Source of the DNA: an uncultured Bacteroidales bacterium
Lineage (GTDB): Bacteria; Bacteroidota; Bacteroidia; Bacteroidales; CAIWKO01
DNA length: 64,000 nucleotides
Assembly: GCA_903913285.1 (NCBI GenBank)
Contig: CAIWKO010000010.1
Span: 1-64,000 of the forward strand
Direction of reading: 5' to 3'
How positions within the stretch are numbered: position 1 is the stretch's first letter; every line of letters begins with the position of its first letter. The notes beneath the pieces are model-generated. The model made no database searches and was not told where the DNA came from. It worked only from the letters and a program-made list of their open reading frames with translations. The translations under genes were made by a program, and so were the position numbers. Of this stretch, positions 9,260-15,099 are shown in pieces.

Positions 9260-9304
9260 ATTTAGTTAAAAAGTTGATTGGTTTGTTATATATTTGCCGA
9301 TACA

Positions 9305-12244
9305 ATGCCGAATAAACTAAAACATATTTTTTGTGTTCTTGCCATGTTGTTTGTTGCTACATACACTTGTGCACAGCAATACAGCTACAAGCATTACACT
9401 ATACTTGACGGATTGGTACAAAACCAGATAACTACATTATACCAAGACCGTCAGGGATATATATGGGTAGGAACTAAAGGGGGTGCCAGCCGATTTGACG
9501 GTTTGCATTTTAAAAATTATACAGCAGATGATGGGTTGCCTACCGGTTTGGTGCAAGGTTTTCTGGAATTACATAACGAACTTTATTGTTATACAGCAAA
9601 TGGAATTTCCGTTTTAAGAAACGGGCGGTTTGAATTAATATACACATTACCTAAACCCCAATTAGAAAATATCAAACTTAATTCCGATTCTACTAAAGCT
9701 TATATTGTTTTACATTATGAGATATTGCAAGCGAATAAAATCGGTATTCACAGCATTTATACTTTTCATGAGAAAACCTTAATAGGAAATTTCTGTATCG
9801 ATCCGGAAACTGAAAAACTGATATTTTCAAATTCAGAAAGTATTTTTAGTCTGGACAAAAAAAATGCACTTAAGACTATTTATAATTCATACTGTGGGAG
9901 AATAATCAATATTAATAGACATGTCTATTTTGTCTTAGAAAATGTTAATTCTAAAAATAATCTTAATGGTATTTATAAATTAATGAATGAGAAACCTACA
10001 AAAGTTTTTAATGGTTACCCAAAACCAATGTTCGGGTCAATTACTTTGAACAGAAACGGAAACATTGTTTGTTTTTTAGATAATTCCAGTTGGGCAGAAA
10101 TTGATACAAACGGAAAGGTTTTAGATCAGGATTCTTTACCCAATATTATTATTACTGAATTTATTTGCGACCGCGAAGGAAATTATTGGTTCGGAACCGA
10201 AACCGGACTTTATTGCTTACAATCATTTGCTTTCAGAAATTATGGTGAAAAATCGGGTATACCATCTTATGTGTGGAGTATTATGGAAGCTCACGACAGC
10301 GCTATGGTTTTTGCAGGTTTTGGAGGTGGACTGGGAGTGCTGAAAAAAAATAAAGTTACAATTATACCGAAAGCAAAGTACATGATGTTTAATGATGATA
10401 AATTCTATATGGATGGCATGTGCAACAGTAGGGGTGATGGATTTTTGCCAATGGAAAAAGGTCATATCCTTATTTACGATGGAAAAAAGTTTGTGAATTT
10501 AATATTAAAGTTTTCTGGAGAATACTCAGTTACATTATGCACTTATGAGGATATTGCTGAACACCTTATGTACTTTGGAGGTACCAATGGATTGTTTTTA
10601 TATAATATTGTCGACAAGTCGCAAAAAAATTATGCAACTGAAGGCCATAATGTTCTTTACGTGGAAGCAGATAAATTTAACCGAAAATGGATATGCACCA
10701 ATGCAAAAATATATTTGTTCGAGCACGATTCACTGAAAGAGATGCACCTGCCGGGCATGGAAAACAAATCGGCAGTGGTTTCGTGCAAACGCGACCCGCG
10801 TGGCAATATGTGGCTGGCATGCAAAAGCGGGCTTTATCTTTATAACTGGAAACACTATATTAAATTTTCGGGGGGACAATACTCTTTTATAAGCTTGTAT
10901 CAAAATCGATATTTAATTGCCGGAGCTATAACGGGGTTTTTATACATCGATTTGGATACTTTTTATGCCATGAAGCCTGATTGTTTCCGGTTTTTCGACC
11001 GCTACAACGGTTTCACCGGAATTGAATGCGGGCAAAACGGAACCTGCACCGACAGTAAAGGCAATGTGTGGATACCTACTTCGGAAAGCGTGGTGAAGTT
11101 TATGCCGTATCGGTTGAAAAAAAATACGCTTGCCCCTACTTTAAATGTTTATTCGTTCGAAATTTCGGGCAACGATTTGAAATGGGATAATATCTTTGAC
11201 GAATATTCCGAAACGGGCAAAACTATTAAACTCACTTACGATAAACACAATATACGAATCACGTATCAGGGTATTTCGCTTTCGTGTCCTGAAAAAGTCA
11301 ACTATAAAACCCGATTGGTGGGCTACGATAATACATGGTCGGAACCGAACAACGAAAAAACAGCCGTTTATACCAACCTGTCGCCCGGCCGTTATACGTT
11401 CGAAATTTTAGCTTGTAATGCCGACGGTGTTTGGACTGAGAAACCTTTACAGGTGAATTTTGTTATAATGCCTGCTTTCTGGCAAACCTGGTGGTTTATA
11501 TTGTTAGCAGTTTTGGTATTTACATTTGATGTAGTGGCTATCGTATACTTTATTATGAGAGCCAGGCGAAAAAAAGAACAAAAACAACGGGCTATCGAAA
11601 AGGAATTGGTGAGCATGCAAATAAAAACCATCAATGCTCAGATCGATCCGCATTTTGTGTTTAATGCCATCACAGCTATAGGAGCCGAAGTGCAGGAAAA
11701 CAATGCCGAAAGAGCCTACTCATATTTTGTGAAGGTATCGAACCTGTTGCGGAATTCGTTAAAAAACAACGAAAAAATGATCAGACCTTTGAGCGATGAA
11801 ATTGATTTCGTGAACAACTATCTTGTTTTGCAAAAATTCAGGTTTGGAGAGCGTTTTGAGTATGTGGTGAATGTTTCGGAAGATACGGATTTGAAATTCG
11901 AAATCCCGAAAATGTGTATACAAACTTTTGTTGAAAATGCAATGAAACACGGGCTTGAACATAAAAAAGCGGGAGGTTTGTTACAGGTAAACATCAACAC
12001 TCAAAACAAACTACTGATAGCTGAAATTATCGACAATGGAATTGGACGGATACAAGCAGAGAAATTTAATTTAAAATCAACAGGAGTTGGGCTAAACACA
12101 CTCAGACAGTTTTTTAAGATTTTTAATTCGTATAATTCAGAAAAAGCGGGCTTCTATATTGAAGATCTGTTTAATGAATCGGGCGAGGCTTCCGGAACGA
12201 AAGTAATTTTGAGCATACCACTTAGCTATAAATTTATTGTGTAA
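9305..12244 (+). CDS. Two-component sensor: propeller repeats, Y_Y_Y domain, TM, LytS-type histidine kinase
   Basis: LDGLVQNQITTLYQDRQGYIWVGTKGGASRFDG propeller motif; QIDPHFVFNAITAIGAEV His_kinase box; C-terminal ATPase domain. Start moved to 9305 for a signal peptide. Confidence 0.88.
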   Translation: MPNKLKHIFCVLAMLFVATYTCAQQYSYKHYTILDGLVQNQITTLYQDRQGYIWVGTKGGASRFDGLHFKNYTADDGLPTGLVQGFLELHNELYCYTANGISVLRNGRFELIYTLPKPQLENIKLNSDSTKAYIVLHYEILQANKIGIHSIYTFHEKTLIGNFCIDPETEKLIFSNSESIFSLDKKNALKTIYNSYCGRIININRHVYFVLENVNSKNNLNGIYKLMNEKPTKVFNGYPKPMFGSITLNRNGNIVCFLDNSSWAEIDTNGKVLDQDSLPNIIITEFICDREGNYWFGTETGLYCLQSFAFRNYGEKSGIPSYVWSIMEAHDSAMVFAGFGGGLGVLKKNKVTIIPKAKYMMFNDDKFYMDGMCNSRGDGFLPMEKGHILIYDGKKFVNLILKFSGEYSVTLCTYEDIAEHLMYFGGTNGLFLYNIVDKSQKNYATEGHNVLYVEADKFNRKWICTNAKIYLFEHDSLKEMHLPGMENKSAVVSCKRDPRGNMWLACKSGLYLYNWKHYIKFSGGQYSFISLYQNRYLIAGAITGFLYIDLDTFYAMKPDCFRFFDRYNGFTGIECGQNGTCTDSKGNVWIPTSESVVKFMPYRLKKNTLAPTLNVYSFEISGNDLKWDNIFDEYSETGKTIKLTYDKHNIRITYQGISLSCPEKVNYKTRLVGYDNTWSEPNNEKTAVYTNLSPGRYTFEILACNADGVWTEKPLQVNFVIMPAFWQTWWFILLAVLVFTFDVVAIVYFIMRARRKKEQKQRAIEKELVSMQIKTINAQIDPHFVFNAITAIGAEVQENNAERAYSYFVKVSNLLRNSLKNNEKMIRPLSDEIDFVNNYLVLQKFRFGERFEYVVNVSEDTDLKFEIPKMCIQTFVENAMKHGLEHKKAGGLLQVNINTQNKLLIAEIIDNGIGRIQAEKFNLKSTGVGLNTLRQFFKIFNSYNSEKAGFYIEDLFNESGEASGTKVILSIPLSYKFIV

Positions 12245-12295
12245 TTTTATGGTTCGAAGAATAGAACGCTGATGACAATATAAATAAAAAAAATA

Positions 12296-12374
12296 GAACG
12301 CTGATGACACAGATTTGTATGATTTACGCAGATAAAATCATTTTTAATCATAAAGATTCGCGTTATCTGTATTC
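12296..12374. repeat. Palindromic repeat R1 (79 bp)
   Basis: GAACGCTGATGACACAGATT...ATTCGCGTTATCTGTATTC; left arm is near-complementary to right arm. Confidence 0.85.
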
Positions 12375-12391
12375 TATAAAAAATAAAAAAA

Positions 12392-12799
12392 ATGATTACA
12401 GATAATTACAAACATTCGGAAATTACTGAAAAAGTTATTAAAGCATTTTATAAGGTGTATAATACTTTGGGATATGGATTTTTGGAAAAGGTTTATGAAA
12501 ATGCATTGTTTTTTGAACTGGTTGAAATGGGCTTTTTTGTCGAAAAACAAAAACAAATAACGGTTTATTACGAAGAAAAAGAAGTAGGCGGCTATTTTGC
12601 GGATTTGATTGTTGAAAATTGCGTGATACTTGAATTAAAAGCTGCAGAAGCCTTATGCGAAGAACATGAATTTCAATTGATCAATTATTTGAAGGCAACT
12701 GAAATTGAAGTTGGGCTATTATTGAATTTCGGAAAGAAACCTGAATTTAAACGAAAAGTATTTTCTAATAAAGAATGGAACGCTGATGACACAGATTAA
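12392..12799 (+). CDS. GxxExxY protein (PD-(D/E)XK nuclease-superfamily fold)
   Basis: GFLEKVYENAL = GxxExxY motif; D...ELK core in FADLIVENCVILELKA. Stop codon lies inside repeat R2. Confidence 0.88.
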   Translation: MITDNYKHSEITEKVIKAFYKVYNTLGYGFLEKVYENALFFELVEMGFFVEKQKQITVYYEEKEVGGYFADLIVENCVILELKAAEALCEEHEFQLINYLKATEIEVGLLLNFGKKPEFKRKVFSNKEWNADDTD

Positions 12800-12880
12800 T
12801 ATGATGAACGCAGATATAATAATGCAGAAATTTTTAATTAAAATCATTTTTGATCATAATGATCCGCGTTATCTGCGTTC
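12778..12880. repeat. Palindromic repeat R2 (~103 bp, internally expanded)
   Basis: Begins GAACGCTGATGACACAGATTAATATGAT and ends GATCCGCGTTATCTGCGTTC. Confidence 0.85.
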
Positions 12881-12891
12881 TATAAAAAAAG

Positions 12892-12933
12892 ATGATTACA
12901 GATAATTATAAACATTCGGAGATTATTAAAAAA
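12892..12933 (+). pseudogene. Truncated 5' copy of the GxxExxY gene (~42 nt) fused to repeat R3
   Basis: ATGATTACAGATAATTATAAACATTCGGAGATTATTAAAAAA vs intact 12392 ATGATTACAGATAATTACAAACATTCGGAAATTACTGAAAAA. Confidence 0.85.
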
Positions 12934-12936
12934 ATG

Positions 12937-13015
12937 GAACGCTGATGACACAGATTTGTATGATTTACGCGGATAAAATCATTTTTCATCATAAAGATCC
13001 GCGTTATCTGCGTTC
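12937..13015. repeat. Palindromic repeat R3 (79 bp)
   Basis: GAACGCTGATGACACAGATTTGTATGATTTACGCGGAT...GATCCGCGTTATCTGCGTTC. Confidence 0.87.
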
Positions 13016-13032
13016 TATAAAAAATCATTGAT

Positions 13033-13785
13033 ATGAATGAGGAGAAATATAAAGTAATTATTGTCGACGATGAAGAACCTGCACGTCGCAATTTGGCGAA
13101 TACACTTTCGAAATACAGCGATATAGAAATTGTTGCTCAGGCAGCCGATGCCGCTGAAGCCTTATCGGCTATTGTCAGCAAACGGCCCGATTTGGTGTTT
13201 TTGGATATTAAAATGCCGCAACAGGATGGCTTTGCCTTGCTTGATGAATTGATAAAACTAAAATGCAATGGCTTTCAGGTGGTTTTTTTAACTGCTTACA
13301 GCGAATTTGCCATAAAAGCCATCAAATACGATGTGTTTGATTATATCCTGAAACCTATAGCCCCCGATGAACTTGATAAAACGCTAACTAAATTCAGAAT
13401 TAAAAAACACGACGGCTCGCTTAACGATATCGACTACCTCGACAAACTCAAACATCTTTTCGAAAAAAACAATAAGATCAGGTTTAAAACCAACACAGGC
13501 TTTATATATCTGCAACTTGAACAAATTGTTTATATAAAAGCCGACAAAGGTTATTCCGACATTTACGATACCGATAATAATAAGCATACCGTATGTAAAA
13601 CCCTGCAATTGCTACTGGATGAAATAAACGAAAAATCCCTGATCAAAGTTCATAAAAGCTACGCTCTAAACGCACTTTATTTAAGCTCCTACAATAGAAT
13701 TAAAAAGATCTGCATCCTAAAATCTGGAAACAGCACGTATGAAGTGCCGGTTTCGAACCGCATGGAATGCAATTTAAGCCGATAG
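13033..13785 (+). CDS. LytTR-family response regulator (REC + LytTR)
   Basis: IIVDDEEPARRNL, LVFLDIKMPQQDG, FLTAYSEFAIKAI, FDYILKP; C-terminal LytTR domain. Confidence 0.93.
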   Translation: MNEEKYKVIIVDDEEPARRNLANTLSKYSDIEIVAQAADAAEALSAIVSKRPDLVFLDIKMPQQDGFALLDELIKLKCNGFQVVFLTAYSEFAIKAIKYDVFDYILKPIAPDELDKTLTKFRIKKHDGSLNDIDYLDKLKHLFEKNNKIRFKTNTGFIYLQLEQIVYIKADKGYSDIYDTDNNKHTVCKTLQLLLDEINEKSLIKVHKSYALNALYLSSYNRIKKICILKSGNSTYEVPVSNRMECNLSR

Positions 13786-13804
13786 AAAACTGTTGACAAA
13801 AATG

Positions 13805-13884
13805 GAACGCTGATAACGCTGATTAATATGATGAGCGCAGATAAAATCATATTTAATCATAAGCAATCCGCGTTATCTGCGTTC
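13805..13884. repeat. Palindromic repeat R4 (80 bp)
   Basis: GAACGCTGATAACGCTGATTAATATGATGAGCGCAGAT...AATCCGCGTTATCTGCGTTC. Confidence 0.85.
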
Positions 13885-13904
13885 CTTTTACTCCCCTCCT
13901 AATT

Positions 13905-13955
13905 TACGTTCGTTGCCAAAAAGCATACGTTGGTTGCCAAAATTGCTACGTTAAC
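13905..13955 (+). promoter_or_regulatory. Three putative LytTR-binding direct repeats spaced exactly 21 bp
   Basis: TACGTTCGT (13905), TACGTTGGT (13926), TACGTTAAC (13947). First two match [TA][AC][CA]GTTN[AG][TG] 9/9, third 8/9; 12-bp gaps. Confidence 0.75.
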
Positions 13956-14040
13956 AAAGTCGATTGACATTTGCTTGCGTCAAAAAAATTATTACCAGTA
14001 CTTTGTAATCGAAAATTGTAATACTAAAACCATTAAAAAA

Positions 14041-14763: not shown

Positions 14764-15099
14764 GAGCGCTTCTACAATTCAACGGAGTACTTTATTTGTT
14801 CGGGCGAGCACTTCGCTTGTTCAAAGGAGTACTTCGTTTGTTGAGGCGAGCACTTCGTTTGTTGAGCCGAGAACTTCACTTGTTGAGGCGAGAACTTCGT
14901 TTATTGAAGCGAGTACTTCCGTTATTGAGACGAGAACTTCGTTTGTTGAGGCGAGTACTTCGCTTGTTGAGGCGAGAACTTCATTTGTTGAGGCGAGAAC
15001 TTCGCTTGTTGAGAAGAGAACTTCGTTTGTTCAAAGGAATACTTCGTTTGTTGAGGCAAGGACTTCGTTTATTGAAACGAGTACTTCGGTAGTATAAAG
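14764..15099 (+). repeat. 16 x 21-bp degenerate tandem array (consensus GAGWACTTCGTTTGTTGAGGC); may encode a heptad-repeat ORF 14762-15097
   Basis: Sixteen consecutive 21-bp units read without indels. Confidence 0.92.

Follow-up and report, generated by a model that had tools for sequence, protein, structure and literature searches.

A GxxExxY nuclease gene and its hairpin repeats as a candidate compact mobile element of bacterial operon spacers

What kind of unit is formed by a small gene for a GxxExxY protein and the palindromic repeats that crowd around it? The question is raised by a cluster in a 64,000-nucleotide (nt) stretch of DNA from an uncultured Bacteroidales bacterium (assembly GCA_903913285.1, contig CAIWKO010000010.1, positions 1 to 64,000), which we call the window. 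All parts of the cluster lie on one strand, between a sensor kinase gene and a LytTR response regulator gene (Table 1). GxxExxY proteins are a widespread, named family without known function, and in the open-access literature we found no paper that gave them one or tied them to repeats. The family name appeared in only two full texts, both silent on function, and PF13366 in one. We favor the explanation, with a probability of roughly 0.55, that the locus represents a small cluster formed by a compact element that is mobile, or formerly was, and whose intact form consists of a left end, the GxxExxY gene, and a right end. Intact elements are approximately 440 to 560 bp long and have inverted ends.

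The association between gene and repeats extends well beyond the window. We examined 59 related genomes, 32 of which carry GxxExxY genes, with up to 12 per genome. At each locus, 320 nt upstream of the gene were compared with 330 nt around and after its stop codon, and the gene was scored as bracketed if the two shared a direct or inverted repeat with z > 6 over dinucleotide shuffles. Brackets were found at 47 of 67 GxxExxY loci versus 0 of 30 YbeY control loci (Fisher P = 5e-12). Genes for four-helix-bundle proteins of the 23S rRNA intervening sequence (IVS) family were bracketed at 31 of 48 loci, versus the same 0 of 30 (Fisher P = 1e-9). The arm motif of the window's repeats was then scored in 81 loci, comprising 80 close relatives from several phyla, picked for their closeness to the window protein, and one viral contig; these loci are non-independent samples. 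The motif was present in the 200 nt upstream of the gene in 60/76 and in the 200 nt downstream in 56/80, compared with about 3% in other 200-nt bins. An earlier reading of the window from its sequence alone (the sequence-only reading) had asked whether GxxExxY genes are generally flanked by such repeats, and both surveys indicate that they are. The commonest architecture was one left arm, the open reading frame (ORF), and one right arm (24 loci exactly so); whole hairpins on both sides of the ORF, as in the window, were a minority form. The exact arm pattern was present in 17 of 32 genomes with a GxxExxY gene versus 5 of 27 without (Fisher P = 0.008). Equal abundance of the repeats in genomes lacking the gene, which the sequence-only reading had named as fatal to its proposal, is therefore not what was seen, although their occurrence in such genomes means that the link is not exclusive. 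A phage origin was considered and rejected, as phage records gave no match and there was one distant viral contig; the plasmid comparison covered six records. Together, the sequence comparisons support the view that gene and ends behave as one unit, which recurs in the spacers of many operons across many bacterial phyla, and the element likely spreads itself.

The termini of this unit are sharp. The ends of 56 elements read AATRG-AACRCNGATNACRCNGAT and its reverse complement, with a G before AAC in 56/56 and a C after GTT in 54/56, and conservation fades beyond about 5 bases. The left end of a gene-bearing element runs into the start of its ORF, as in TATGATTTACGCTGATAATTATAAGCATTCGGAT (locus L193), which encodes M I Y A D N Y K H S D, while the right end, as in L190, reads AAATCATTTTT.ATCATAA and is followed by the right arm. 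Hairpins R1 and R3 of the window read TATGATTTACGC.GATAAAATCATTTTT.ATCATAA, that is, a left end with its first codons fused to a right end. When the inner part of R3 was compared with the ends of GxxExxY elements, 20 of 48 left ends scored at least 16 (2.1 in shuffles), and the corresponding number for right ends was 17 (5.6 in shuffles), such that hairpins without a gene retain both ends of the gene-bearing element. The solo hairpins R1, R3, and R4, along with R2 in a longer form, thus appear to be derivatives resembling miniature inverted-repeat transposable elements (MITEs), in which both ends were left after loss of the gene. The 42-nt remnant beside R3, with the ORF start still in place, is a second, independent example of deletion. 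Two ends joined with the ORF deleted is the structure that supports an autonomous/MITE-like pair, as the sequence-only reading had proposed. Solo hairpins lay between codirectional genes in 12 of 17 cases versus a local baseline of 272 of 359, and hence showed no enrichment there.

Within the window, what had been described for the cluster withstood sequence and repeat searches, including the order of R1, the GxxExxY ORF, R2, the copy of the ORF start, and R3. The copy, put earlier at about 90% identity, matches at 38 of 42 positions before it jumps to R3, and the stop codon of the ORF is indeed supplied by the repeat, lying inside R2. The repeats were also rightly called hairpins: R1 to R4 fold with stabilities far beyond those of dinucleotide shuffles (z = -3.7, -5.2, -5.3, and -6.1), with pairwise identities ranging from 71/85 to 82/88. 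Two parts are new, namely R4 and a truncated left arm 5' of R1. In the 4.0-Mb genome to which the window belongs, blastn found the repeat at this locus only, in four copies, and there is a single GxxExxY gene. Matches to the arm pattern elsewhere in this genome were mostly at the level of a reversed-pattern control, with no other clear copy.

TABLE 1 Features of the GxxExxY cluster and its flanking genes (window positions)
Feature	Positions	Strand	Basis or detail
Upstream host gene, two-component-propeller/Y_Y_Y/His_kinase sensor	9278..12244	+	ORF list, Pfam
R0, truncated left arm ATAGAACGCTGATGAC	12261..12276	+	Sequence and repeat searches
R1, hairpin without gene	12291..12378	+	Left arm 12297-12314, right arm 12356-12373; inner part has the sequence of the ends of GxxExxY elements
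GxxExxY protein ORF, 135 aa, PD-(D/E)XK fold (GFLEKVY; D71, E81, K83)	12392..12799	+	C terminus NADDTD* encoded by R2
R2, hairpin, longer inner part	12774..12884	+	Left arm 12779-12796, right arm 12862-12879
Remnant, first 42 nt of a GxxExxY ORF joined directly to R3	12892..12933	+	38/42 identical to 12392-12433
R3, hairpin without gene	12932..13019	+	Left arm 12938-12955, right arm 12997-13014
Downstream host gene, LytTR response regulator	13033..13785	+	ORF list, Pfam
R4, fourth hairpin without gene, 3' of response regulator gene	13800..13886	+	Repeat searches, blastn

The ORF product matched PF13366 (PDDEXK_3; E = 1e-40) and TIGR04256 (E = 1e-39), and scored above the curated cutoffs of the GxxExxY family profiles (135.5 bits versus 35 and 139.2 versus 22). 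In an alignment of 26 sequences, which was too diverse for collection scans, G29, E32, Y35, D71, and K83 were invariant and E81 nearly so, and the D...E-x-K core is intact in the window protein. An AlphaFold model of this protein (mean predicted local distance difference test score, 89.7) had as its nearest solved folds Cas4 SSO0001 and lambda-type exonucleases, with Hjc resolvases matching more weakly; sequence searches gave no convincing relative with a solved structure. The modeled protein resembles DNA nucleases of the Cas4/lambda-exonuclease type and is a predicted nuclease. Nonsynonymous divergence (dN) was far below synonymous divergence (dS) in every informative pair (e.g., 0.059 versus 1.11 and 0.025 versus 0.529), and the protein is kept under strong purifying selection. 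The domain search of the ORF returned PF13366 only, and there was no Y1 (HUH) transposase beside the repeats.

The arms of the repeats suggest recognition by a protein. The fixed letters are the same in both arms; at three positions, the free letters show no covariation between arms, while two positions do covary. Because the variable positions lack covariation, the arms look like two copies of a sequence-specific protein site rather than a maintained RNA stem. A stem on the sense strand was tried as a candidate and rejected, the wobble test (G-U pairs not favored; GU 346 versus AC 481) and the covariation test both being negative. A search of Rfam gave no match. The repeats also have a period that goes with the protein family. 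In autocorrelation of the flanks, GxxExxY loci had a period of 9 nt (25/150 over z 3; none at 7), even though single loci are often too short to give a clear period, whereas four-helix-bundle loci had periods of 7, 14, and 21 nt (z above 3 at 7 nt in 28/50 and at 9 nt in none).

The filled and empty sites that the sequence-only reading had called for exist at two places. One is the spacer between genes that, from their protein sequences and with no database result behind the names, we take to be sucA and sucB. It is filled in genome G001 by a GxxExxY element of another repeat family, is a bare 28-nt spacer in the window's own genome, and holds a single right arm without an ORF in G003. The other lies between genes that we presume on the same grounds to be fnlB and fnlC. 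It is occupied by GxxExxY elements in two Flavobacterium species and by a four-helix-bundle gene with heptamer repeats on either side in one genome, while most other genomes have a short spacer of 9 to 99 nt and one carries another gene. These comparisons are between species, and the direction of change is one that we infer. For the window's own insertion, the search for an empty site showed that the three sister species lack a close orthologue of the kinase/regulator pair; a regulator in G002 (46%) is without a neighboring kinase. At repeat-bearing loci compared between G001 and G003, both carried repeats of differing content in the same spacer, and there was no clean empty site. Orientation was strongly biased. 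Between codirectional neighbors, 94 GxxExxY genes were in the sense orientation and 3 in antisense, and the counts for four-helix-bundle genes were 35 and 1.

Other arrangements of these elements were also seen. In L343 (G016:C193, approximately 11684-14020), hairpins with GAT-type arms occupy several consecutive spacers of one codirectional gene run, nearly edge to edge, and one of them adjoins a GxxExxY gene. In L092 (G001:C40, 1855-2280), a right arm plus spacer is present in five tandem copies 3' of a GxxExxY gene belonging to the CTTTGTGT repeat family. At L195, L200, and L223, and likewise at L215 and L231, GxxExxY elements from different species are flanked by two related copies of one gene type (peptide-transporter-like and AcrB-like).

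We propose a mechanism in which the GxxExxY nuclease would be the mobilizer of the repeats. It would recognize the 9-nt-periodic sites at the element ends and cut either there or within a target spacer of an operon; insertion or copying would then be completed by host repair. Placement in the sense orientation would allow a promoterless gene to be expressed from the host operon, a step suggested by the near absence of antisense copies. The hairpins could be scars of deletions that joined one end region to the other.

Several observations weigh against a mobile element. No insertion or excision event was seen, and the target-site signature whose absence the sequence-only reading had named as a refutation was not detected at element ends, with no target-site duplication (about 150 offset/length pairs compared; highest z, 2.5). 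The strong sense bias is unexpected for a plain DNA transposon without selection. The motif was missing on both sides at 12 of 81 loci, and L081, a locus of the close clade, has no repeat. Repeats are also present in five genomes where no GxxExxY gene was detected, three of which (G021, G034, and G043) show no GxxExxY trace. Finally, the protein tree mixes phyla, which favors the element, but most phylum labels come from metagenome bins.

The main rivals of the element model are homing-like and IVS-like RNA variants. With homing, gene-less hairpins would be the targets; the nuclease would cut there or nearby, and the gene would be copied in by host gene conversion, thereby invading preexisting repeats. 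Homing would accommodate the frequency and dispersal of gene-less hairpins, the existence of composite forms in which the ORF has a whole hairpin on each side (the window being one case), the lack of a target-site duplication, and a site with several right-arm copies in tandem. We nevertheless consider it unlikely, given that R1 and R3 hold the first ORF codons fused to the right end, which speaks for deletion and not for a target yet to be invaded. Gene-less hairpins are deletion-like in appearance, and the empty sucA-sucB and fnlB-fnlC sites are without any hairpin in most genomes. In an IVS-like element, an RNA stem within a transcript would instead hold the ORF in its loop, with orientation and placement resulting from RNase III processing or RNA-mediated insertion. 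The lack of a preference for G-U pairs on the sense strand, of covariation at variable arm positions, and of an Rfam match makes this improbable, despite a basic form in which an inverted repeat encloses the ORF as its loop, the 94:3 sense orientation, the same habit in the 23S IVS protein family (TIGR02436), and the precedent of the IVS in Coxiella (PMC4990558).

Two further readings would leave the nuclease without a part in mobility. It could be a passenger, as cargo or as a protector of the element, with another transposase acting on the ends; the persistence of repeats where no GxxExxY gene was found is consistent with this. However, the four-helix-bundle family has the same habit with a different repeat period, and the gene is under strong purifying selection, and we regard a passenger role as improbable. 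The GxxExxY gene might also be an ordinary host gene of operons where unrelated repetitive extragenic palindromic (REP)-like repeats happen to gather. Sense orientation and close spacing are typical of such genes too, but the neighbors are unrelated (146 proteins in 89 clusters), empty sites exist at sucA-sucB and fnlB-fnlC, the link of the repeats to the gene is confined to the nearest 200 nt, and their period varies with the protein family. This reading was already disfavored and has very little probability left.

As a candidate mobile element, the unit has partial counterparts among known systems. The 23S rRNA IVS of Coxiella burnetii is an element of about 430 nt with one small S23/four-helix-bundle ORF (PMC4990558). 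Both are short and sporadically distributed, with a single small ORF placed in a loop by complementary ends, and the IVS protein family TIGR02436 is also intergenic between inverted repeats in the genomes studied. The element described here differs in encoding a GxxExxY nuclease where the IVS encodes a four-helix bundle, in occupying spacers of protein-gene operons (sensor kinase/response regulator) instead of an rRNA gene, in its 9-nt rather than 7-nt period, and in having no sign of selection on an RNA stem. The comparison with REP/REPIN sequences and their RAYT partners, made in the sequence-only reading, holds as an analogy, since both have hairpin repeats around a single candidate mobilizer gene along with gene-less derivatives. 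It fails as membership: here there is a PD-(D/E)XK nuclease in place of a Y1 transposase, the arms are longer, and there are only a handful of copies per genome (four in the window's own genome, all at the locus). Insertion sequences with MITE derivatives share the inverted termini at fixed positions, deletion derivatives that keep both ends, and filled and empty sites, but not the absence of a known transposase and of a detected target-site duplication or the strong orientation bias in operons.

Orphan heptamer repeats, such as TAACTGA of Beggiatoaceae (PMC4679880) and GGGAATC/GGGGATT of Xanthomonas and Nostoc (PMC4692102), are likewise of short period, intergenic, and partly inside operons. 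One author proposed an unknown repeat-binding protein as the mobile part. These reports name no protein partner, whereas here the four-helix-bundle family goes with 7-nt repeats and GxxExxY with 9-nt repeats; the four-helix-bundle loci may explain the orphan heptamers of other bacteria. More tentatively, mobile elements that lack a known transposase could form a class in which each kind pairs a small protein family with repeats of a characteristic period (9 nt for GxxExxY and 7 nt for four-helix-bundle/S23) and is placed in sense in operon spacers; their gene-less remains would be the long-known orphan nonamer and heptamer repeats between bacterial genes. The tie to specific repeats gives GxxExxY proteins a directly testable substrate and offers a reason for their scattered distribution. 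If the four-helix-bundle parallel is true, orphan 7-nt and 9-nt intergenic repeats gain candidate protein partners, and the 23S rRNA IVS would be, as we suggest, one branch of a larger class of operon-dwelling elements.

Four-helix-bundle (TIGR02436) genes were seen between heptamer-periodic inverted or direct repeats inside operons at L116, L120, L133, L171, L172, and L278. Apart from the cluster, the window has at 14785-15088 an array in which a 21-nt unit, TTTGTTGAGGCGAGAACTTCG, is repeated in 14 tandem copies and which forms a repetitive 111-aa ORF. A similar 21-nt array is present in the sister species G003 (L313), and G001 has none at the place of that G003 array.
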